Shown here in pieces: positions 896 to 50,246 of a DNA stretch of 64,000 bases. The notes below the pieces were generated by a model. The model saw nothing but the letters and a program-made list of their open reading frames with translations, searched no databases and was not told the origin of the DNA. Both the position numbers and the translations under genes were made by a program. This stretch comes from Owenia fusiformis (lineage: Eukaryota > Annelida > Polychaeta > Sabellida > Oweniidae). Where the stretch lies: NCBI GenBank assembly GCA_903813345.2, contig CAIIXF020000002.1, forward strand, positions 18,056,813 through 18,120,812, in the 5' to 3' direction. Position 1 is the stretch's first letter. Each line of letters begins with the position of its first letter.

Positions 896-3800
896 TATAC
901 TTACGATGTTTTTCTTATATTTCTATATTTGCCACCCCAGTATTCAAAAACATATTGGAGAATTGGTGAGGATAATGGTATTATTTGTTTGGAACAACAA
1001 ATCGGGCATATTAAAGCAACATTCGGAGATTGCAAGTTTCTTATTATGGGGGACCTGAATGCGAGAACCGGGAATGAGTGTGACTATATATTAAATGATG
1101 ATATTCAAAATTTGCCGATTGGTGCTGATTGGTATGATGTTGATACCTTTTCACTTCCACGATGTTCAAGTGATCACACTACAAATGAGTTTGGCAGAAC
1201 CTTCTTAGAAGTTTGTAAAGAATGTGATATCCATATATTGAACGGTCGTTTTTCGGGGGATAAAGATGGAAACTACACATATATAAACACATCCATGGGG
1301 CGCAGCGTCATTGACTATGGTGTATGCTCATCAGACCTCTTCAATTTTATAAATAATTTCACTGTGGGCAATATTAATACATCTGAGGGAACGGATCATT
1401 TTCCAATAACTTGTGATCTCAAATTGATGTTACATTCAGCAAATAGAAATGATCAACAAAACATGCGACAATATGACAGGTATATTTGGAAGCCTGATAA
1501 AGTCAATATATTTAAAAGCAAAATTCGTGACCAAACATCCCAAAATATATTAAGGGGATTTAACGATATGATTCAAAATGGAAACATAGATGGTGCTGTT
1601 GATAAAATTGTGAAATGTATTAACTATGGAGCTGAATGCATGAAAGTTAAACTGAGGAATCAAAATACAAAAACTGATGATTGGTGGGATGGTGATTGTG
1701 CAAAATTAAAGAAAAGAAAAATAAATAGTCTTCTTAATTATAGGAATTCAAAATCAAATGAATCTTTAATTGCCTATATAACAATCAAAAAAGAGTTCAA
1801 GCTATTATGTAGAAATAAGAAACAGGTATATGAAAATGAATTTATGAGCAAATGTAGAGATTGTATGAATGATGTAAATAAATTATGGCAATTGATTAAG
1901 TATGTAAAAGGGTCTCAAACAAAAGGTCATATTTCACCAGTCGAATGGTATGAGTATTTCAAAAATTTGCTTACTACAGATTCCGATATAAATAAAGACT
2001 TTCAAAATGTTGTAGATGACTTTCTCAAAAATCATGACCAAAATGATTGCAATCAATGTTTACAAAATTTACCAGATGAACTGAACTGTAATATATCTGT
2101 AGTGGAAATTGAAAATGTAATTACAAATTTAAAAAGTAAGAAAGCCCATGGTATAGATGGGATCACATATGAGATGTATCAAAATAGTTATGACACTTTA
2201 ATGCCATATGTTCATTTATTGTTCAATTCTATCATGTCAAATGGCTACTTTCCAAATTTGTGGAGCGAGGCTATCATTGCAGCATTATTAAAAAAACCAC
2301 CAGTTGACAATGTTAATAATTACAGGGGTATATCTTTACTTTGTACACTTGGTAAGATTTTTACAAAGGTTCTAGCGAATAGATTTATTAAGTGGGCTAA
2401 AACAAATCATAAAATAGGTGACCATCAAGGAGCATATCAAGAAGGCAAAAGCACTTATGATCATATATTTAGTCTCTCTGCTATGGTAGAAAAATATTTA
2501 TGTAAATCCAGAGGGCGCTGTTTTATAGCATTTGTTGATTTTAGCAAGGCATTTGATTCTATTCCTCATAAGCAAATGTGGTATAACTTACTTAAGGAGG
2601 ATGTTCATGGAGCTTTTCTCAAAACATTACAATCTATGTACTGTAAATTAAAATCATGTGTTAGAACACCAGATGGTCTTACCCAATCATTTATGTGCCA
2701 AGTAGGTACAAGACAAGGTTGTATGATTAGCCCTTTTCTGTCCATTTTATATTTAGAACAGTTAGTAAAAATGTATAAATGTTCAGAAATTGAAGGAATA
2801 TTTGTAACAGAAAGTGTGGATAATGTACATATACTTTTATACGCAGATGACATTGGTCTTTTAAATCATACTGTTGAAAATATGCAAAATCAGCTAAATA
2901 TACTATCAGAATTTTGTGATAAATTTGGCATGAATGTGAACCTTTCGAAAACTAAAATCATTGTATTTAGAAATGGTGGTATTGTTAAAAAGGATGAAAA
3001 ATGGCTATACAAGGGTAAAAATGTAGAAATAGTTTCTTATTACAAATATCTGGGTTTAATGATTTCTTCTAGGTTAAACTGGTCAGTCGCAACCAAAACA
3101 CTAGCCAATCAAGGTGGAAAGTCACTACATGTCATAAACCAAATCTCAAAATTAGGTGGCTCATTATCATTTCAAATGGGATTCAGACTTTTCGATTCTC
3201 TGACGCTTCCTATTTTAACATATGGCTCAGAAATATGGGGTTTTAAAGTTTACGACCAAGTGGAAAAGGTTCAAAGAAAATTTTGTAAATCATTTCTTAA
3301 AGTTGCATCACAAACAACAAATGAGGCAGTTCTAGGGGAATGTGGACGATACCCATTATGTACAATATATATGTCAAAATGTGTAAAATATTGGTTAAAA
3401 CTAAATATGGAGATGGAAAATGGGAGAATCCCAAAACATTGTTATTCTATGTTAGAGAACCTTGATTCAACAGGCCATATTACATGGGCAACACATGTTA
3501 GAAAGTTATTGTGTACAAATGGCTTTGGTGATGTTTGGGCTTTCAAAGAAGTAGGTGATGTGGACCTTTTTATTTTAAGTTTTAAGCAGAGGCTAAAAGA
3601 CATTTACTGTCAAGAGTGGGCTGCTAGACTTTCAGAATTACCAAAAATGGTAACATATTGTAATATTAAAACAGTGATGGAAAGAGAAAAATATCTTTCC
3701 TGTGTAAATATAAATAAATTTAGAGTTGCTCTAACTCGATTGAGATGTAGTAATCATTCATTAGAAATTGAAATGGGTCGAAGAAATAATGTGCCCAGGG

Positions 3801-38250: not shown

Positions 38251-38548
38251 TAGTAGTCCCACGGAGGTAGGACCAATTCCTACCATTTTATATTAGACCA
38301 TGGACTTTGATCACCAAATCCGTGGAAATACCAATTCCAGATTTTAAAGTCCGACTCTCATACCCTCCAAAAACCAGGAGACCTTAAAGAATCCTCATTT
38401 TTTCAGAAGAACTCAAGTTGAATCTCAACAAGTAAATTCCTGTTGGATAGTATTGCTAAAGTCCACGTGCATGTACTTCAGCTCTGAAAGAGATTTTGAG
38501 CCAACAGTCTTTGAATACTGTATGTACTGTGGTTATCACATATTTCAG

Positions 38549-38760
38549 TGACCTTCCAATGTAGGTATGATAGTGGCACGGGAAGAAAAACAATCTACAT
38601 CGACTTGAAAAAAGGTGGAGACACAATCGGAGCAGCGTACGCAGATGGTAAATTTACGACGTGTAGATTGGTAGACGCTGGAGCGGATGCTTTTGAACTG
38701 AGTATAGATGTCACAGCTGGCTCTTCATCACCTGATTACACTGGTTGTGGACTAGCAACG
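38549..38760 (+). CDS. ZP gene A exon a (ZP-N)
   Basis: The acceptor is TATTTCAG and the donor GTAAAC. It encodes VTFQCRYDSG..., TTCRL and YTGCGLAT. It starts in phase 1, so at least one upstream coding exon exists, as in gene B. Confidence 0.92.
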
Positions 38761-41700
38761 GTAAACGAACTAAATACAATCTTAAAACGAAATATACAAT
38801 ACAATCTAGTTAAGCTGTCATTATAAAACATTGCGGCACAATATATCTATCTTACAATAAAATATATCTCATAATTACTAACCTTAAGTATTGATCGGTT
38901 AAACAGGCAAAATATGCCTATAAACCGTAATCATCTTATACTCTTATAATAATACGCTTCAGTCTGTATACTTTTATTAAGGAAATGTAGAACAGATGAT
39001 CACACATTCAGTTTCAATGACTGTCACTATGATACAGCTAGCCTGAACATTAACCATCTTTCATAGGGTACAACTGGTAGCTACAAAGTGTCCATTGTTA
39101 CACAATCGAACGAGCCCTCTGAAGGCATCCTAACTGCTGCTGACAAGATATATGCGGACGTCGGTGACCATGCTAATTGTGATTTCCCGGCGTCCATATC
39201 CGCAACTGCAATCTCCGCGTAAGTGTAGTCACAATCTGAATTATTTTTTTTCCTATTTTGCTGATTGACCCATCTAGAATTCACTGGCGGATCTGAGGAG
39301 GGCCCCCTTGGCTGGCCCAGAAAAAATGGGTCCAAAAAGGCCTTAAGCCCAAAAAGTGAAGAAAATTTTGAAGAAAATGGGCCTCAAAATTTGGGCCGAC
39401 TTTTGGGTTTTAGGGGCCCAACTTTTTTTTCTAACTCAGACTCAACGAGTATATCCCAGTGCGGGTATGAGGGACTTAGGAGTCTAGATATGGTAGAGAG
39501 TTAAGTTATATACGCAAGCTCCATAGACTAATGCCACCCCATGCAGACAGATCACCTAAAATTACATTCGTATACTACACGATTCTATATTCACCAGAAA
39601 ACTAGAAACATTTTGTCCCCCATTAAGCAAATTCATTTTTATCGTACCTAAAAAAGGTACAGATATTGTCGTCAGCTTGACGGGCTGGTGGCGTCTCACT
39701 TTCTTGTCATCACGATTCTTTTTAGATAAATCTTGTCATCGCGATTCCAGGAAAACCACTCAACGGATTTACTTCAAATTTTCACACACGTTACATAGTA
39801 AATGCATGCAATTTTCGGTATGAATATTCAAAGGGCTGGTTTGAGGATGTTTAACTGAATGACTTCAGAAAATGTTTATTTATGCCATTTTGTCCAATCT
39901 GTATGATTATCATATGACGGCTATTCAAATTCCAGCATACCTCATCTCAAAAGAGCATCACGTTATGGAGCTTTCTTATTTTTATAAGGTTATGGTAACT
40001 TTTTTGAATACAGTCTAACGGTCACCCTGCAAGAAAGGCATCATACAATATTCCTCTTTTACATTGGTCTGGTTAGTTATACCTGACGCTGGAAGTAATG
40101 TTCTTGATTCGCTTTGATGTGTCTTATCCTTTACTAGTATTAGTCTCGATGTGAAGAATAATCATCAGAGCCTATCAAGATTTCACCTTTATTATCGTTA
40201 GCAAAAGTTCATATGTTTTCTGGAAAACATTTTACCTCCAAGGCTGCGACATTTTGTTACGGAACGGATCCGTTTTGTAAACAATTTGACGAGTCCCACC
40301 AGTTTCTATCTGCATTATGTTTAAAAACTGTAATTTAACTAGAATATGTTTACAGAAATTTACCGACTGGAACTCAAACCTCTGAAGCACTGCCAGACGT
40401 CACATTGGAAATTTACGACGTTACCACCGATTCTGTAATCAGTAGCGGCGCAATAGATTTTTCAACTAACGTGGGAATTAAAATAAAGATGAATTTGGCA
40501 GATGACACAAAATGTAAGCAAATATTAAGTAACAGAAAACCATTCTATATTTTAGATCGTTGTGATATGTGATAAAAACACGCCATGTGGGATATCAAGT
40601 TACCCATAATATCAGCCTGTGCACATACCTTTGTAATACGTTCTTATAAGTCCTTTTAATTCATTGTTTCATGCATGATCAATTGAAATGCATTACCCTG
40701 CAGGGCATGAATTCCATGATTAGAGGCCACATTTGTAAAAAATTCAAAGTAACATTCAGAAAAATAAAATAGAAAAAATTAATATTTGAATATATGATAT
40801 TTCATCTTAAAATGAGAATACCATTATTTTATCATGGTATTTAAATTTATATGAGCGATAAAGTTGCTTGTCATAAACCGGAAGTAACTGTCTGCTGAAA
40901 AGACGAAACGCTGGTATAATGAGTTGTGCATATATCTGACTCTTAACATATTCTTTAACGATAAACAAACCAATATTCTTTGTTCATTTTGTCTATGAAG
41001 TATTTCTGTATCATATGTTTGGAGTTATATTGGATTTCTCAACTGCAAAAAATATTTTTTGATGTTTGAAAAAATGATCAAATCTGATCCTCCAAATTAC
41101 GCGTTTTTGTGATTCCGTCACGAAATGTACTAAAAAGTTAGCCAACTCTTTCCACATCAAAAGATATAATTTTTTACTGGGGATCTACTTTAAATAACAC
41201 GTAACGTTCCTTCCTGTGAAGTTTAAGTGACACACGACCTCATTATCGCTTCGAACTGGTCGTGACGGAATCACATTTTTCGTGATGGAATCACATTTTT
41301 CCGTGATGGAATCACATAGCTTTTTTCTAGCCTTGATCTATCAGCATACATTATATAAAAAAGCGTTGATCTATTACATTCGTAAGTCGGAATGTATCTT
41401 TTTGCTATCTTTTTGATAAGCCAGCAGTACAGGCCTATTAGTAACTCATTATACCACCATTTCGTCTTCAGTAGCCTATTAAACGTATTCGTTGATGGTA
41501 CATTCATAATTTATGGAAGGTTCGGACTCAAGTTCGCCTGAAGATGACGATGCTACGGCTCAATTTTTTATAGTGCATAGATGTCAAATATGTCGATTTA
41601 ACCCTTTGGAAAATGCTTTCGAAATAAGCAACCGTATTATTAATGGATATTCAAACGTGATTATTGACAACGTATGTTACGTTTTTTGTGTGAAATGTTT

Positions 41701-44362
41701 AAAAGTTTTCCATTTGGAATGTATACGGAACGTTTTACCGGAAAGTGAAAAGGAACTTTTAATGCCTGATATTGAATACTCTTGCTGTTAGCTAGTAATT
41801 TATAATGGCAAAAACTCCAGCTGAGCGCCAACAGGCTAGGCGCGACAGAATTAAACTTAATCTCCAAAAACACAATGAATTCAAAGAAAACGATAGAGTA
41901 AGAAAAAACAGAAAACGAGAAAGCTTGTCAGCAGCTCGACTCAGGTTAGAGAGAATCAAATCAAGAGAGGCCACAAGAAAGTGGAGGGAAAACAAATCAA
42001 AAAAAGATGAGGCAAATATCAATAATATCAATGAGCCTAAGAGGTCGAATGAAAGGCCTACTCAAGCCTACAAGAGCAATTCTACATTCGGAAAGGCCAA
42101 GAATAGGGCTGAAAAAGCCCTCCCAAAAAGTCCTCGCAAACGTAGTTTGATAATAACCACCCTTGCTCAGAAGTATGCTGCCCATGCAGCTAGAAAAGCT
42201 TCCGGCACGTCCGGCATAAATCAAGTAACCGCACAAAAGGTACGCGAATTTTATCTTAGAGACGACATCAGTTATCAGCTGCCAGGAAAAGCTGATACTA
42301 TTGTTATTAGAAAAAGCATTGGCACTATAAATTTGAAAGAAACTTTTCAAAAAAGAGTCATGATCACTACAATAGCTGAGGCATATGAACTTTTCAAAGA
42401 GGACAACATCGAGGAAATAGGAAAATCGAAATTCGCAGAGCTTCGTCCCAAACACATACAATTGGTATCTAAAATGCCACATAATGTTTGTGGCTGTAAA
42501 TATCACAACAACATTATCCTTCTTCTTGAGGCACTCCACAGAAAGGTTCCAGTAATACCTTTGTACGGAGCAGAGTTCTTAGACCTTGTTACGTGTGGAC
42601 CTGAGAACGAAGAATGCATGTCTCAAAATTGTGAAGATTGTATGAATTATGAAGTCTTGGATACATTAGTTACCGCCAATGCCAAAGATGACATCCCTTT
42701 GAAGTACCAGCAGTGGAAGGAGGATGACGATGGGTACCTTATAAAGGTTGACCTCACTGGAACAGTGCAAGACGGAGTTCGCCTTCTCAAAAGTCAACTC
42801 CCTCGGTTCCTGTGGCACGTCTTTATCAAAAGACATCAAGATGCCAGCCACAAGGACTCCATTCTCGAAGCCATTCACGAGAACAGTAGCACCAGTGTTG
42901 TGCAGATGGATTTCTCTGAAAATGCTACCATCACGTTTCAGGACGAAATTCAATCTGCCCACTGGAAACAAAGGCAGGTGACACTGTTCACAGTCATGAT
43001 ATATCACAGACAATACAAAATCTCGTTGATTATTCTGTCTGATGACACGGACCATACCAAGGACAGCATCGCATGTTTTCTCAACACCACTATCTCATAC
43101 ATCAAATCCGACGTTTCTCCTGATGTGAAAACCATTAAAGTTTGGACTGACGGTCCATCAAGTCAGTTCAAAAACAGGTTCATAATGGCACTGATCCCAA
43201 ACTTAGAACGGCGACATGACGTCGGAATCCAGTGGAATTACCATGCCACGGGCCATGGTAAGTCGGCCAATGATGCCATTGTTGGAATGGCGAAGAGAGT
43301 GGCGTTTCGAAAGATCAAAAGCAAGGAGCTGGTTGTCCATGACGCATTAACATACAGCAAAGCCCTCAAGAGCATGCAGGGGATAAAAACCCTGTTTATT
43401 CCTAAATCAAAGATAATTGAAGGTATGTTGATCGCATTAAGTTCAAATTGAATTATCATATAATTTTATCATTCACTGTATACTGTATCATATTCAATGT
43501 CTTAAAACGATATTCAATTTTCAACCAAGTAATGCTACGATTTCAACATGTCACATTGTACCGTTAATCCGAAATTCAGCCAGTCAAGACTTCAACCAAG
43601 TATCAACAGATTACAAATGTATTATATGTTATATTCCAATAAAACTCATTTACAGCTTGGTATTTAAAATATTTTCAGATTGCAAAGAATTGTCAACGGA
43701 GGAGATTTGGTCCAAAGCGACGGTAGTGAGGGGGATTATTAACGTCCATTCTGTTGAAACAGAACACACGGCTATGGGCCCGGTCATACTGTTGACAAAA
43801 TTTTACACCACGTCTCCGAATGAAACTCGCTTTGAACTAGGTAATAAACATCATGACATTGGCATCGCCGAGTTAATATCAAATATCAACACGAGTGAGC
43901 GAAGACTATGGACATTTTATTATTAGCATTATATTCATGTACATTAAAAAACATTTTAGAGCTAGGTTATGATTAAATTTGATATAGTGCCATAGCTTTA
44001 GCTTTGCAGAATATTGTATTTAATGTGTCTCTCGTAGTCCGGCAACGGCTGGATGTATTATTCATCATGTGAGAGGTAAATAAATTAATATAAATACATA
44101 CCGTTACATAGGCCTACACACGATATCACACGCATATGATCTTGATAAACGATTTTTTGGAAAATATCACACGGATTTCAATGATATCAGAAATATCACT
44201 AGCTATGTACAGATAACACATTAATCGTGGGAGATGTATTTGCTATATTTTGACGTGGTACTAGGTCCATCTAGGGTTATTTGAACTTCACCTTAGATCG
44301 CATATTTATTTTTATTTACTTTTAGATGTTCTGGTAGAAATTCCGTTAGAAACGCAACAAAG

Positions 44363-44393
<31 letters not shown>

Positions 44394-47300
44394 AAGTGTT
44401 TTCTATGTGGCAGTGTTTACGGTAGTGCCAGTGATAGGAAAAGTAAAGAAGATTGGGTAAGTGCAATGGTATTATAAAATTGTTAGAAATATATATCCGA
44501 GACATTTCATCCCTAGAAGTAGAATTTTTCTCCCTGGATGCTGTGTATTTCATATGCATAGGTGTCCTAATGTATGTTTGTAATTTGGTCATCACATATA
44601 ACCTTGGTTCCATTTTGTAATTTCAGGTGAAATGTAGTAGCTGTGGGAAGTGGGGACACATAAGCTGTTCAGGGTCCCACTTCCCAAAGTGCATGCAATG
44701 ACACTGGGTCGAAAAGGATAAATCAACAAACAAAATCTTTTTGGTGAAATTTTTTGGCTAAATGAAAAATTAGTGAGCAACAAGGGAAAATTTTTTTACA
44801 GTCATAATTGGATAAGAAGTGGGTTTATCTATATAAAGGATTTTTTTTAAAGATGGAGTTTTTGTTGATGAGCAGTATATTCTGAATAAATTGATAAAAA
44901 AACATAATTGGATGATCGAATATATACGAATAAAAGGTTATTTAAAACAGAAAAATATACAAATATAAAAGCAAAAAGCAATTACCTTATGAAAGATGGT
45001 AAATGGATACATATACAGCACATCAATGCTAAACGACTGTATAATATTTTACTAGAAAGTAAACATGAAAGAAGCATTATGGAAAGGCATTGGGCAACAG
45101 TTTTCAGCACACCAAGATGTAAAACGTTCTATGGGAAAGTATATGATTCAAAAATAAAAAATATGATATATAAAAAACACGCGGAATTCAATTTTAAGCT
45201 TTTCCATAATATTTTAGCGTGTGGGAATACTATATGCAAATGGAATAAAGAAATCAACCAGTATTGTAGTGAATGTAAAGTGATACAAACTCCAAAACAT
45301 TTATTACTGGACTGTAAGATTGTACAAAATATTTGGGAAAAAATTAGAAATATCTTTAGATGTGATATCAAATGGAAACATTTTATTTTAGTGTTCTATA
45401 TGTTGGAAGGTAACGTATCTCAGTCAAGAAATGTAATTATTACCACCTTGCCGGGCCAGTTCTAGGGTTTTAGTGCTAGTTTAGAAGGCATTCATTTTAC
45501 TATATCGACCTGAGAAATGTAATGGTGGTCCATATGGACCGGTCTAGAATATATTCTGGACCGGCAAATTTTCCCCGGGAAATTAGATATCGTTCAATGC
45601 GTAAGATTTTCTTGCTATTTCACCCCTGGTCGTTAACGGTGGTAATAATACTAATAATGTCATTTCTGCGAGCAATATAGTGAAATTTTGGACCTTGGGC
45701 CTTCGGCCCTCGGTCCAATATTTCACTATATTGCCCTTAGAAATGACATTATGGTACTATTCTCACAATAGTGGGGTACACAATTTATTTAAATTGGGTT
45801 AAGAACTCAAATAATATGGACAGATACAAAAGTATAAATTTTGAAAACACTGTAATCAACCGACTGAAATTATACATAAACAATTTAGATATGATGAAGA
45901 GTGAAAAAAATGTTGTTCTAAAAAATAGCTTAGAGATCTTTTTAAACAAATTTGAATAGACTATGTATGTGTATTGATATATTGTCATGTATTATAATAT
46001 ATTGTATATATGTTTAATGTTAAATGGAGATTATTGTTGGTTTACAATAAATGCATTATGGATCCTACGTTAATCCTGTGTATATTTAACATCATTTGAC
46101 CCAGTGTGAGGGAACGGATCATTTTCCAATAATGTAAATTGGAATAATCATCGAAATATGAGACAATATGACTGTTATGACAGCTATATTTAAAAAACTG
46201 ATAAGTCAACACATTTAAAAACAGAATTTGTGATCAATCATCCAAGATAATATTAAATGAATATGATTCGAAAAAAACTTAGATGGTGCAGTTGCTGAGG
46301 GCATGAAAGTAAATTCAATTGATAATTGGATAATGATGATGTGCACAATTGAAAATGACCAGTCTTCTTAGTTTAAGCTATTACTAGTATGTAGAAAGAT
46401 AAAGAAGACACATGAAAATGAACGCGATCATGCACAAATGAAGAGACTATATGAATGATGCACATTGTTGTGGCACTTTAATGCCTTATATGTTCATATA
46501 TTGTTTAATAACACTGTTCAAAGTCAATTTCTTTTTATGTATTTTTGTCTCGTGATTCCATCACGCTTAAAATTGTGATTCCGTCACGGCATAATGATTG
46601 CAATATTACAATGCCAGAACAAGTAAGAGTGATTCCGTCACGGAGGAGACATAAGCCCGTAGCAATAAAAATATTGTACGCACATTGAATTTGATACTCT
46701 CCTATAGACAAACAAAACAGCCCGCTTCTAGAAGAACCCATATTAGATCAAGAAACCCATGTGTGTTTGACAGATTGGCTTTACAATGTTGTTTTTAAAG
46801 TCAAATGTGTGATTCCGTCACGTTGGAATTCATGACGGGCGTAGCCAGCAATTTACAAGGGGAGGGGGGTCAGTTCGATACTTGCACCACTGCAAGCGAA
46901 TCGAGCATCAAAAAGGGGGTACGGGGGTCCACCCCGGAAATTCTCATTGCATGTGGTGCATTTTAAGTATTTCAAACTATAATCTTTAAAATATTAATGT
47001 TTTTTCAACAAATTTTACAAAATTGCTTCTTTTTTGTGGCTACGACCATGCCCTGGAATACTTCTCTCGAAATACAAGTAATAGGCTAGTTTTATTTTGT
47101 TCATTACAGTGATGAAGGGTATCAAGGTGACTGAATGCTGGGCATATGCAGCATCATATCTGACGCAAACTGTCACACCAATTCAGCTGACAAACATGGA
47201 TGGGTAGGCAATGAACAATATGTATTGAGCGAAATCAAAATAATTGAGAAATGATATTTTTCTAAAGGAAAGTGAATGGTATTACATCAAAACAATAACT

Positions 47301-50246
47301 CTTTGTATGGTTCATAAAAATATCTATGGCGAATTTAAGAAAATCTCGCATATTATTAGCTATAAAAATCATGATACAATATAACCGAAAATATCTTTGT
47401 CAGATTCGGGATAGCCGTGTATAATTAAATGTCCATGTTATCACGTTTGTCAGTTTGAGGTGCCAAAACATGAAATTCAATGCACACACGTCATTTGGTG
47501 ATGTGCACGTGACAGTATATAATGTGATGAAACTCGCATAAAAGCATTTATCCATGTATTCTTTACATACATTTTCTACTTTAGTTGTTCTGAACATAAT
47601 GTAATGAACAAAGGAGCTACCAGGGGAAAGTTCGAAAAGGATGCAGCATTAACTGCTGGAGGCGTCTACTATGCCACTTCCACTGAATTCGCGCCTTTTC
47701 GTTTTGCTGATACAGAGGATCTCACTCTGCAATGTTTCTGGGTACCTTGTTATGCCGCAAATCTGACATCATGTGACAACGTAAGTATTTTCAAAGTATA
47801 GTACATGGAATAAAGCCAACTGGAAAGAGATTGATAACATTTGATACCTTTGATAGTTGTTTCGATAGTTGTTATAACCAACGAGATGGATCACCATGTT
47901 ACATGTTTTTTTTTGTTTCGTACTCCCCGACATTATTTCCTGTATTCTCTATGTTCACTTTCTAAAAAAGAGTTTGAGAACTCATTTTATTTTGATGTCC
48001 AAAGATTACACGACAATGACAAAGTATGTATTGCTGTTTAATTAGAGCTTCATACGGTACTATATAATATATCAATTGCAATTCGTTTTGAGCTCATGCA
48101 TTTCAATGGAACAAAAAATGATCTAGTTGAATCGAGCTCTTAATGAAACTTATCAAATTGAATGGAGTGATCAGTTTCAATAGAACATCATGGGATAGTA
48201 TGGAATCATAAAACATAATAAAATGCCAGTCAATCCTTATAGGCTGGAAGCAACTGTCCCGCCAAGAGAAGAAAGAGGAACATTATAGATGGCGCTTCTC
48301 CAGGAGAACGATATGTAACCAAAACATTCCATGTGATGACTGGGTCGGAATCCTCAGGCGATGACATGGGGACAAATGCAGGTAAATATTAACTTGCAAC
48401 TTCCACAAATAGAACTTACAAATATACGCGTACGTGTACGTGACGTAATATTCTTCGTCCTTATATACATCCATGTTCCTTAATTCTTCACATAATAGTC
48501 ACTGTCATATTCCCCACTCGCTCATTGGTCTTCACATTACACGTGACATAAAAATAAAAATACCTATTTTCACTTTCGATGATTCCACAAGGTTCGGAAA
48601 ATACACCTCGCTAGAATCATTGAAAGATGAACAGGTATTCACCTTATTAGTAAGAAAACATTTGTGTAGTACTACTGATGGATATGATTATCTGAAAGAA
48701 ATTGGTTCTCACTTACAAATGTTAATTTGCATGTTAACACATACATTTACGAGTATAAAATATCTTATAATGTATACATTTTTGAGCGAGCACACTTGCG
48801 TTGAAATCATTAGCTCACATTGAAAGACTCAATCACAGTGATTTCAGAGAAGAAATTGCTACCCATAATTCCAAGCGCCTCATTTCACTAAGATTTTATT
48901 ATTTATTTTATTGAAACAAATTTTAGATGTTATAGGTCTCTAGTCCTACCAATGCCATCTACTAATCCTTCTATATACAGGGCGTATAAAAAACGCAACA
49001 AGTACGTAGTTATCTTGAAAAATCACAAAACTAGTGATGACTACATCAATTTCATTAAATGTACCATAAAGCCACGTCTCTCCTCTTTGTAATATATGTC
49101 ATTCATTCACATGTGGTAATGGTTGGGTGAGAAATCATTCCATTTGCACAGTGGGTCAAAATCGGCTCTGGACCAAGTTTTAGATATTGAAAAAATCTGT
49201 GCAAGTTCTAAGTGCCAATGGAAGTTCCCCTGACTTGAATTCTTTTGGAGCTATTTCAGGAGCATTTGTGCTAACAATTCCTCCACCAGATATTGCAAAC
49301 CTCGAGAAAAAATTGCCCATGGGCTGCTTTTCTCTGCTTTAACCCACAGATGACTCAGGGCTGAGCGTATCTTTATGTGCAAGGGAGTGGTGGCAATTTG
49401 AAGGGGTATATGATGTTTTCTTGCAAGAGTATGAGTATGTCTATGCCACACCTGTCACAACTTCTTCCAATAGCCACTATGCCCCTTGTACTGACTTTTG
49501 CAATGTTTAAAACTTGGATCCGAGCTGAAATTTTGTCCCACTTTGCAAAATTAATGATTATTCGGCCAGAGATGACTCCCTGTGAATGAATGATATTCCA
49601 TTGCAAAGAGGAGTAATGTGGCTTTGTGGTACATTGAATGAAAAGGATGCAGCCAGCATTGGTTTTATGTTTTCTTCCAATATTGCATCGGGCTCCGAAC
49701 ACTGACCTTTGCGATTTTTAAAACTTGGTCCCAAGCTAATTTTGTCCCACTTTGCAAATGGAATGATTACTCGCCCAACCATGACCAACTATCAATGAAT
49801 GATATATCATTGTAAAGAGGAGACACGTGGATTTATGGTGCATTGAATGAAATCTATGCTGTTATCACTTGTTTTGTGCTTTTCCGAGATAACAATCTGT
49901 TGTGTTTTTTTGATACGCACTGTATAATTATATAGAACAGGGTCAATTTAACACCATCTTCCAGATGCGTTAGACGTTCGTTACCAATACGTTGATTTAA
50001 CTAAAGTATACTCTTTTGTCTTCAGCCAACAATGGTTCTTTGGGAAGCGCCTCTGGGTCATGCCTACATAGCATGGAGTTTTTGCTAGTTTCGATTGTTC
50101 TGGCAGTCCTGCTACTCCTTGCTATAGGTGTCGCCATGTGTGCAGTGTTTCGGCTCAGACAGAGTAACCAGGAGACATACAGACAGGAGAATATACATGG
50201 CTATGACAACCGCTCCCATTATTCCGAATCCAAGAGGATGCCGTAA
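38549..50246 (+). CDS. ZP-domain transmembrane protein A (5' exons missing)
   Basis: Seven exons: 38549-38760, 39067-39218, 40356-40513, 47110-47203, 47585-47780, 48243-48381 and 50026-50246, with AG/GT borders and consistent phases (1,0,2,1,2,0,1). They give 389 residues. The first two exons carry ZP-N with its four cysteines (FQC, TTC, GCG, NCDF). Exon 3 is the linker. Exons 4-6 carry ZP-C (TECWAYA, GCSEHN, LQCFWVPC, TSCD, NCPAK). Then comes a furin-type site KRRKR, a transmembrane helix (about 24 hydrophobic residues from FLLVSIVLAV) and a short polar tail. ZP modules polymerise into extracellular matrices or filaments after cleavage at such sites. A signal peptide exon is expected upstream but was not identified. 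Gene B downstream is a paralogue with the same exon pattern. Intron 3 hosts the PHD transposon. Confidence 0.92.
39067..39218 (+). CDS. ZP gene A exon b (ZP-N end)
   Basis: GTTGSYKVSIVTQ... ANCDFPASIS. Acceptor TTTCATAG, donor GTAAGT. It holds the fourth ZP-N cysteine. Phase 0 to 2. Confidence 0.9.
39240..39480. repeat. Intronic GC-rich repeat remnant
   Basis: ATGGGTCC, GGGCCTC and GGGCCCAAC words form a low-complexity block of a type common in dispersed invertebrate repeats. Any open frame here is without domain support. Confidence 0.3.
39780..40190 (+). repeat. Dispersed repeat, copy 1 (second at 53235-53760, minus)
   Basis: GGGCTGGTTTGA, GACGGCTATTCAAATTC, TACATTGGTCTGGTTAG, GATTCGCTTTGATGTGTCTT and ATCCTTTACTAG occur in mirror order as complement at 53.2-53.75 kb. 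Confidence 0.8.
40356..40513 (+). CDS. ZP gene A exon c (linker)
   Basis: NLPTGTQTSEALPDVTLEIY... ending KIKMNLADDTK. Acceptor TTTACAG, donor GTAAGC. It is 158 nt long, identical in length and phase to exon 5 of gene B (61162-61319). Confidence 0.9.
41109..41315. repeat. Left cluster of 14-bp palindromic transposon motifs
   Basis: GTGATTCCGTCACG is at 41109-41122. Its complement form CGTGA[CT]GGAATCAC is at 41261-41274, 41281-41294 and 41302-41315. The inner three point opposite to the four copies at 46552-46822, as expected for subterminal transposase-binding sites. Each motif is itself a near-palindrome (GTGA...TCAC). Confidence 0.75.
41513..41791 (+). CDS. Small PHD-like zinc-finger protein (transposon ORF1)
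   Basis: 92 codons. An acidic N-terminus (SSPEDDD) is followed by CQIC, a spacer, then FCVKCLKVFHLECI, the C-x2-C-x4-H-x2-C core of a PHD finger. It ends YSCC followed by a stop, so the last Cys pair is compressed or incomplete. The stop lies 13 nt before the ATG of the transposase-like frame, in another reading frame. It may be a translated upstream ORF, a first cistron, or a remnant of a longer exon. Its role is not known; PHD fingers usually read histone tails. Confidence 0.55.
   Translation: MEGSDSSSPEDDDATAQFFIVHRCQICRFNPLENAFEISNRIINGYSNVIIDNVCYVFCVKCLKVFHLECIRNVLPESEKELLMPDIEYSCC
41805..44701 (+). CDS. DDD-type transposase-like protein with C-terminal PHD finger (spliced, 661 residues)
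   Basis: Exons 41805-43422, 43679-43840, 44326-44456 and 44627-44701, with donors GTATGT, GTAATA and GTAAGT, acceptors TTTCAG, TTTTAG and TTTCAG, and phases that all agree. Residues 1-70 are strongly basic and helical (RRDRIK..RKNRKRES..RKWRENK), a likely DNA-binding region. Residues 365-495 look like an RNase H fold: MDFSEN (D369), SDDTDHT, KVWTDGPSSQFKN (D449) and GHGKSANDAIVG (D490), a candidate catalytic DDD set. Exon 3 carries an Asp run from (GAT)n, then CFLCG. Exon 4 carries VKCSSCGKWGHISCS, the C-x2-C-x4-H-x2-C core of a PHD finger. The final Cys pair is missing, probably cut by the LINE fragment that begins near 44705. The family resembles unclassified metazoan proteins; I cannot assign a named superfamily. 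Confidence 0.75.
44359..44392. repeat. (GAT)n microsatellite in transposase exon 3
   Basis: About 11 GAT units, translated as a poly-Asp run in the transposase frame. A likely site of length polymorphism. Confidence 0.95.
45434..45650. mobile_element. Short TIR element inside the LINE fragment
   Basis: ATTATTACCACC at the left and GGTGGTAATAAT at the right form the terminal inverted repeat. The centre contains GGTCCATATGGACC and a near-palindrome CCGGTCTAGAATA/TATTCTGGACCGG. It splits the LINE reading frame. Confidence 0.6.
45653..45752. mobile_element. Hairpin MITE, copy 2
   Basis: 100-bp palindrome of the same family as 5398-5498, including the GGGCCTTCGGCCC apex and the TTTCACTATATTGC arm. 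Differences lie mainly at the ends (GTCATT in AATGTC versus AACGTC). Confidence 0.85.
46096..46530 (+). pseudogene. Internally deleted copy of the 929-4036 LINE
   Basis: Patches follow the intact LINE in order: GAGGGAACGGATCATTTTCC (as at 1386), ATGAGACAATATGAC, GATGGTGCAGTTG, ATGTAGAAA, TGAAAATGAA and GCACTTTAATGCC-ATATGTTCAT (as at 2195). Large deletions separate them and no frame survives. It shows an older history of the same LINE family at this locus. Confidence 0.75.
46552..46822. repeat. Right cluster of 14-bp palindromic transposon motifs
   Basis: GTGATTCC[GA]TCACG at 46552-46565, 46575-46588, 46629-46642 and 46809-46822, all in one orientation, mirrored relative to the inner three copies of the left cluster. 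Confidence 0.75.
46848..46960 (+). repeat. CGTAGCCAG-type dispersed repeat fragment
   Basis: GGGCGTAGCCAGCAATTTAC followed by a G-rich block. Related starts are at 53446 and, reversed, near 58020-58040. Confidence 0.55.
47110..47203 (+). CDS. ZP gene A exon d (ZP-C start)
   Basis: MKGIKVTECWAYAASYLT... NMDG. Acceptor ATTACAG, donor GTAGGC (weaker than consensus). Phase 1 to 2. Matches exon 6 of gene B (MRVVKCTAYAG). Confidence 0.9.
47585..47780 (+). CDS. ZP gene A exon e (ZP-C core)
   Basis: GCSEHNVMNKGATR..., FAPFRFADTEDLTLQCFWVP, CYAANLTSCDN: the F-x-F and C-x4-C signature of ZP-C. Acceptor TTTAG, donor GTAAGT. Confidence 0.93.
48243..48381 (+). CDS. ZP gene A exon f with furin-type cleavage site
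   Basis: AGSNCPAKRRKRNIIDGASP... GTNA. RRKR directly after the last ZP cysteine is the usual position of the consensus furin site of ZP proteins. The acceptor CTTATAG has a weak pyrimidine tract, so the exact start is a little uncertain, but the phases fit (0 in, 1 out). Confidence 0.82.
48978..49922. mobile_element. Mariner-like non-autonomous element in ZP gene A last intron
   Basis: Left end CAGGGCGTATAAAAAACGCA and right end complement CAGTGCGTATCAAAAAAAC, flanked by TA. The arms share the TGTACCATAAAGCCACGT, CTCCTCTTTG and GAATGATT blocks. The interior at 49500-49640 repeats the right-arm module (about 212 bp period), so the element holds an internal duplication. Confidence 0.8.
50026..50246 (+). 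CDS. ZP gene A exon g: transmembrane helix and tail
   Basis: ANNGSLGSASGSCLHS, then a hydrophobic helix (FLLVSIVLAV...AVF) and a cytoplasmic tail with several Arg, Tyr and Ser residues ending SESKRMP and stop TAA. Acceptor TTGTCTTCAG. Confidence 0.9.

Follow-up and report, generated by a model that had tools for sequence, protein, structure and literature searches.

Does the stretch of Owenia fusiformis DNA studied here hold a single mobile element, and if so, of which kind? The stretch, referred to below as the window, comprises 64,000 nucleotides of contig CAIIXF020000002.1 (positions 18,056,813 to 18,120,812 of the forward strand). A first-pass annotation of its sequence had marked 41109-46822 as a candidate undescribed DNA transposon which codes for a DDD transposase with a PHD finger and is flanked by arrays of a 14-bp near-palindrome. 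We found a transposon with well-defined ends in this region and consider it probably a cut-and-paste element of the Sola type, whose DDD transposase would act on the subterminal arrays. This reading is built on the element's ends, its inverted repeats, the target duplications, the restriction and conservation of the motif, the conservation of the catalytic aspartates and the constraint on the coding sequence. From these we infer an RNase H fold, motif binding by the transposase, synapsis, the cleavage chemistry, the roles of both zinc fingers and the membership in Sola.

The ends were located by a BLAST search of window positions 40001-48000 against the loci which contain exact copies of the motif. 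The blocks common to these loci start at 40706 and stop at about 46834, and the whole transposon, nested insertions included, is thus 6,129 bp long (40706-46834, + strand); the copies reach 403 bp further to the left and 12 bp further to the right than the borders first proposed. The element is bounded by 11-bp terminal inverted repeats, CATGAATTCCA on the left (40706-40716, + strand) and TGGAATTCATG on the right (46824-46834, - strand). Both ends are present in eight copies (the window, L001, L003, L004, L005, L006, L009 and L012), and one end is missing in L002, L007, L008/L014 and L010. All eight two-ended copies start with CATGAATTCCATG, and the reverse complement of the right end starts with CATGAATTCCA in six of them, being one base short in L003 and L009. 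Target duplications of 4 bp are exact in six of the eight (TTCT, GAGA, AGAG, TTTT, TTTA and ACAA, the left end of L005 having been shifted 4 bases inward by post hoc choice) and carry a one-base mismatch in the remaining two, TAAA/TAAG in L001 and AGGG/ACGG in the window (40702-40705 and 46835-46838). As controls, a 3-bp duplication fits one of the eight copies and a 5-bp duplication none, and left and right flanks taken from different copies match in none of 56 pairings. When the flanks of the window copy were joined and searched against the genome, one element-free place was found across the junction (C124:413039-413266, 76% identity). This unoccupied relative of the site reads CTGCAGGGGCG, that is CTGC-AGGG-GCG, which shows AGGG to be the original target and places the single substitution in the right-hand duplication of the window. 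The duplications are 4 bp long and have no fixed sequence. With inverted repeats, duplications, an unoccupied site and internally deleted derivatives at dispersed places, the element has the features of a cut-and-paste DNA transposon, as had been suspected.

The 14-bp motif belongs to the element as well. Eight GTGATTCCGTCACG-type motifs lie in the window at no more than two mismatches, against an expected 0.27, and none of 100 shuffles reached eight. They form precisely the two clusters of four that had been described. On the left are an outer motif (41109-41122, + strand, 99% conserved in the copies) and three inner ones on the - strand (41261-41274, and, with one mismatch each, 41281-41294 and 41302-41315); on the right, all on the + strand, are 46552-46565 (one mismatch), 46575-46588, 46629-46642 and the outermost, 46809-46822, which ends 12 bp from the end of the element. 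The three inner left motifs are therefore mirrored to every motif on the right, as the annotation stated, and also to the outer motif on the left. The left cluster is found 403-609 bp inward of the left end, so the motifs are subterminal. Across the genome (498 Mb) there are 46 exact occurrences of the motif and 80 with no more than one mismatch, compared with 29 for the reversed control pattern. The 46 exact copies are spread over 14 places, the window and 13 further loci, and 45 of them sit in loci with relatives of the element; this similarity is weak at some loci, covering just 54 bp in L010 and corresponding to a diverged copy in L011/L015. The motif is thus not scattered through the genome apart from the element, and copies which carry both clusters, the kind the annotation had proposed to look for, do exist. 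Among ten copies, motif columns are 98.3% identical to the window (869 cells, some of which may pair a motif with a neighbouring motif copy), whereas other arm columns are 85.2% identical (6,345 cells); a level of 95% is reached by 11% of the 723 windows of 14 bp outside the motifs. Conservation above that of the remaining arms is the pattern which would be expected of protein-binding sites needed for mobility. The proposal that the arrays are binding sites stands to this extent, and the transposase is the candidate binder.

The transposase gene consists of four exons on the + strand, separated by three introns which all have GT/AG borders. Exon 1 (41805-43422) encodes the basic N-terminus and the DDD core. 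Its frame is open for 548 codons up to the next stop, and D369, D449 and D490 lie in it within the residue contexts originally quoted. Exon 2 (43679-43840) was placed by its splice sites, with an acceptor ending at 43678 or, in a shorter form, at 43687, and its DNA is conserved in L015. Exon 3 (44326-44456) contains an acidic run and the start of the PHD finger, and exon 4 (44627-44701) the remainder of the finger. The spliced protein translated with acceptor 43687 has 658 residues; the 661 residues of the annotation are obtained by arithmetic with acceptor 43678, which adds nine in-frame bases. The C-terminal PHD-like core matches Pfam PHD with an E value of 0.00021 and 21.7 bits, below the curated cut-off of 24. 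An intact relative of 786 codons, L021, also ends in a PHD-like finger (Pfam PHD, E 0.052), which makes the C-terminal PHD an ancient trait in at least part of the family.

A search of the genome with the transposase gave 26 match rows at 21 places, of which the window and 14 others were examined at the sequence level. Nine sequences entered the catalytic alignment, from which the near-identical L017-L019, L024 and L029 and the fragment L014 were omitted. Core identity to the window is 29-36% among the aligned relatives and 70% for L015. D369 is kept in 8/8 aligned sequences, D449 in 9/9 and D490 in 7/8; the positions invariant where at least seven sequences are present are D369, F370, H417, D449, Q454, G485, K486 and a few others. 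Judged by this alignment, the transposase belongs to a diverse DDD-type family. L015, a third and diverged copy on C5 whose protein is 67% identical, has a nonsynonymous divergence (dN) of 0.15 while synonymous sites are saturated, so the protein was under strong purifying selection while the families diverged. No family in Pfam, NCBIfam or PHROGs was above cut-off for the proteins tried, and a sequence search of the PDB gave no meaningful relative of the transposase. No relative was seen in viral and prokaryote contigs scanned with patterns from two alignments, short patterns which can miss distant relatives, or by tblastn of phage records, and a literature search found no mention of six amino-acid motif strings of the protein or of DUF7869. 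The locus provides cleanly marked ends, a duplication of 4 bp and a candidate binding site for a family of transposases which present-day protein libraries fail to recognize.

Apart from the window there are seven two-ended copies, which measure 852-1,929 bp and contain no genes. The single other long copy, at C9:8946174, has a left arm 85% identical to that of the window, followed by an interruption of about 1.8 kb and then by 94% identity up to window position 43136, where the match ends; its transposase pieces contain stops. Four more partial arm matches were found at C8:4776855, C10:8201634, C1:24558603 and C10:12406244. A search for inverted repeats that might mark the ends of the single-copy relatives L020, L021 and L023 gave none.

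The four copies of a sister family, L016-L019, share about 99.4% identity along some 4.95 kb (L016:100-5051), measure 4,914-4,969 bp, have 23-bp inverted repeats with the ends CACTC/GAGTG and contain an intact catalytic exon. The ends were placed one base inside the BLAST edge, at CACTC and not ACACTC, because L019 has a T before CACTC. All four copies are flanked by 4-bp duplications (TTCA, TATA, TAAA and TGAT). The motif GTGA-N(3-7)-TCAC is absent from the sister family, which has instead a 13-bp motif of its own, CAATTTACGAGTC, with nine matches at no more than two mismatches in both arms, against an expected 0.2, for a word selected post hoc after repeats had been seen in the sister element. 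Each of the two families studied therefore has subterminal arrays built on a word of its own. The sister family looks recently mobile and would be the better choice for an activity assay.

How might such an element move? We propose that an RNase H-like DDD transposase, expressed from the four-exon gene, would bind the near-palindromic 14-bp GTGATTCCGTCACG sites subterminally at both ends, pair the ends of the element and cut at the short CATGAATTCCA repeats. Insertion into a target cut with a 4-bp stagger would produce the 4-bp duplications without fixed sequence. The internally deleted copies of 0.85-1.93 kb, which retain ends and motifs, would have been mobilized in trans, and the C-terminal PHD finger and a small zinc-finger protein encoded upstream probably aid expression, targeting or contact with chromatin.

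To which of the known kinds does the element belong? Sola elements, according to the excerpted description (the superfamily papers cited here and below were all drawn on in excerpt), have a DDD transposase, 4-bp duplications, a length of mostly 2-9 kb and inverted repeats of 11-1124 bp, and are found from bacteria to animals (PMC10741241). Compared by description only, our element fits in all four respects, with DDD by sequence, 4-bp duplications, 6,129 bp and 11-bp repeats, and the sister family with its 4-bp duplications, 4.95 kb and 23-bp repeats fits as well. It is therefore doubtful that the transposon is undescribed in kind, as had been suggested: the enzyme and the insertion footprint look like those of a kind already catalogued, and the family is probably a member of it. 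The defining test in Repbase practice is similarity between the transposase proteins (PMC4455052). The structural points of Sola are all present, and as our comparison covered these points, we have named the element Sola-like. In the excerpts of the Sola literature, neither PHD fingers nor subterminal arrays were found to be mentioned.

Several points weigh against our interpretation. The assignment to Sola was made from a description, and the AT-rich 4-bp duplications of Sola2 from slime moulds (PMC3627910) are not reproduced here, where GAGA, TTCT, AGAG, ACAA and AGGG stand beside TTTT, TTTA and TAAA. The PHD finger of the window copy is incomplete, as its frame stops at the position which in L021 is occupied by the finger's last cysteine, and D490 is replaced by N in the degenerate L030. 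Single-sequence AlphaFold models are of low confidence, with a mean predicted local distance difference test score (pLDDT) of 39.2 for 548 residues and 35.2 for the 166-residue core. In the longer low-confidence model, strands at 393-401, 404-412, 443-450 and 474-481 and helices at 415-437, 453-471 and 488-499 follow an order compatible with an RNase H core, in which D449 closes a strand and D490 lies in a helix; the first strand near D369 is missing, and the 166-residue model, also of low confidence, differs. An RNase H fold is accordingly a tentative assignment. The window and L014 have a ratio of nonsynonymous to synonymous divergence (dN/dS) of 0.53, a weak constraint. One exact motif, in L013, has no detected similarity to the element around it, and the first 403 bp of the left end have no motif, which makes the array lopsided. 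Finally, the window copy, with its incomplete PHD finger and a fragment resembling a long interspersed nuclear element (LINE) inside it, may no longer be mobile.

Could the family instead be a DDD superfamily outside the named list, which has its 4-bp duplications in common with Sola through convergence? The empty library and PDB searches and the scans of prokaryote and viral contigs would agree with this. Pfam, however, is not known to hold a Sola model, and a missing Pfam match cannot separate Sola from a new superfamily, the contig scans share the weakness of short patterns noted above, and the four described features of Sola are all found; we regard such a superfamily as possible but rather unlikely. 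An aberrant member of Chapaev/CACTA, Ginger, Kolobok, piggyBac or Academ seems to us more improbable still. CACTA elements begin with CACT, as do the repeats of the sister family, and CACTA, Chapaev and Transib elements have a CxxC between the second aspartate and the third catalytic residue, which is absent from 8/8 sequences of this family. Ginger elements also make 4-bp duplications, and some members of Ginger1 have a PHD finger, but Ginger termini read TGTNR, the Ginger1 targets are CCGG or CCGT and the core is an integrase-like DDE domain (PMC2836005), whereas our termini are CATGA (CACTC in the sister family), the targets are mixed and there is no match to a Pfam integrase. Rehavkus, of the MuDR group, likewise has a PHD finger in its transposase (PMC6446971), but is distinguished by 9-bp duplications and a minisatellite. 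Kolobok resembles the element in the length of its duplication, which is, however, specifically TTAA, and it bears between the second and third catalytic residues a C/DxxH signature which it shares with hAT, P, MuDR and Dada (PMC9587614); in our family neither the TTAA, which also sets piggyBac apart, nor the C/DxxH (0 of the same 8 sequences) is found. To the extent that such features delimit the groups, Chapaev/CACTA, Ginger, Kolobok and piggyBac are thus refuted.

A different objection concerns the arrays, which might bind a host factor, for example a CREB/ATF-like promoter activator, with the transposase binding the terminal repeats alone. The motif contains TGACG, which we take to be CREB/ATF-like, and the left cluster stands in a promoter-like position, 0.2-0.4 kb before the upstream zinc-finger gene and 0.5-0.7 kb from the start of the transposase; the motif-free 403 bp of the left end would also be easier to understand. 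Yet the right cluster has no gene to drive, copies without genes keep the motifs at both ends with 98% conservation, and both arms of the sister family hold a wholly distinct array, which is what sites specific to each transposase should look like. We therefore think it unlikely that a host factor is what the arrays serve, and continue to favour a Sola-like element whose transposase would bind them.

More questions are raised by the upstream gene just mentioned, the separate PHD-like open reading frame (ORF) of the annotation, which we confirmed and here call ORF-A (41513-41791, + strand). It encodes an acidic zinc-finger protein of 92 residues and stops 13 bp before the transposase start. Its matches to zf-rbx1 (E 0.0011) and PHD (E 0.049) are both below cut-off. 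The second copy, on C9, holds a 93% identical ORF-A with one internal stop, and weak relatives with 23-39% identity occur elsewhere in the genome. With a relative on C11 as query, 14 rows at 13 places were obtained at E ≤0.1, among them the window (E 0.0075). At two of the 13 places (C11:29321421 and C12:10513742) the relative is followed downstream by a gene of a 709-residue type, which has no similarity to the transposase at E 1e-3; in the listed reading frames of L025, L026 and L032-L036, neither gene was seen beside the ORF-A relative. The 709-residue gene is repeated and contains a CxxH stretch, from which we guess that it too codes for a transposase. ORF-A thus falls into a loose family of small acidic CxxC...CxxC...HxxC zinc-finger ORFs (41513-41791 in the window, L027:4922-5317 on the - strand and L031:2186-2521) which stand upstream of two unrelated repeated genes. 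It is the most unusual part of the element, being found also beside a different and apparently unrelated repeated gene. Perhaps the family is a DDD superfamily absent from the published list and built to a fixed plan (5'-CA termini, duplications of 4 bp, subterminal arrays specific to each family and, in some members, a C-terminal PHD finger), and ORF-A a portable zinc-finger accessory gene which has moved between this transposon and the unrelated element with the 709-residue gene (L027, L031). We doubt this combined proposal. Should ORF-A turn out to be an accessory gene that can be exchanged, unrelated transposons would here have a helper protein in common. At L025, positions 1625-3124 (- strand) contain a frame repeated in tandem, in which the peptide RRGGKFTDSFFKTDVAKSIFSGKDAVFYY recurs.

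The LINE-like fragment inside the element occupies 44725-46018 (+ strand). It is interrupted, in the window copy alone, by a high-copy repeat of about 0.33 kb (45436-45761; 1,713 first-look candidates, of which 40 were scored), and outside this repeat it is matched as one block at seven other places in the genome. A frame within it has a weak match to zf-RVT (E 3.7e-05, below cut-off), so the fragment probably represents a LINE tail. The transposon is flanked by same-strand open frames at 38515-38826 and 47523-47801, in which no Pfam family was found at E 0.01; they resemble exons of a single host gene, and the element may therefore sit in an intron. Its right flank, 46835-46990, is a dispersed repeat which starts near GGGGCGTAGCCAGC, the element being located at the start of this repeat.

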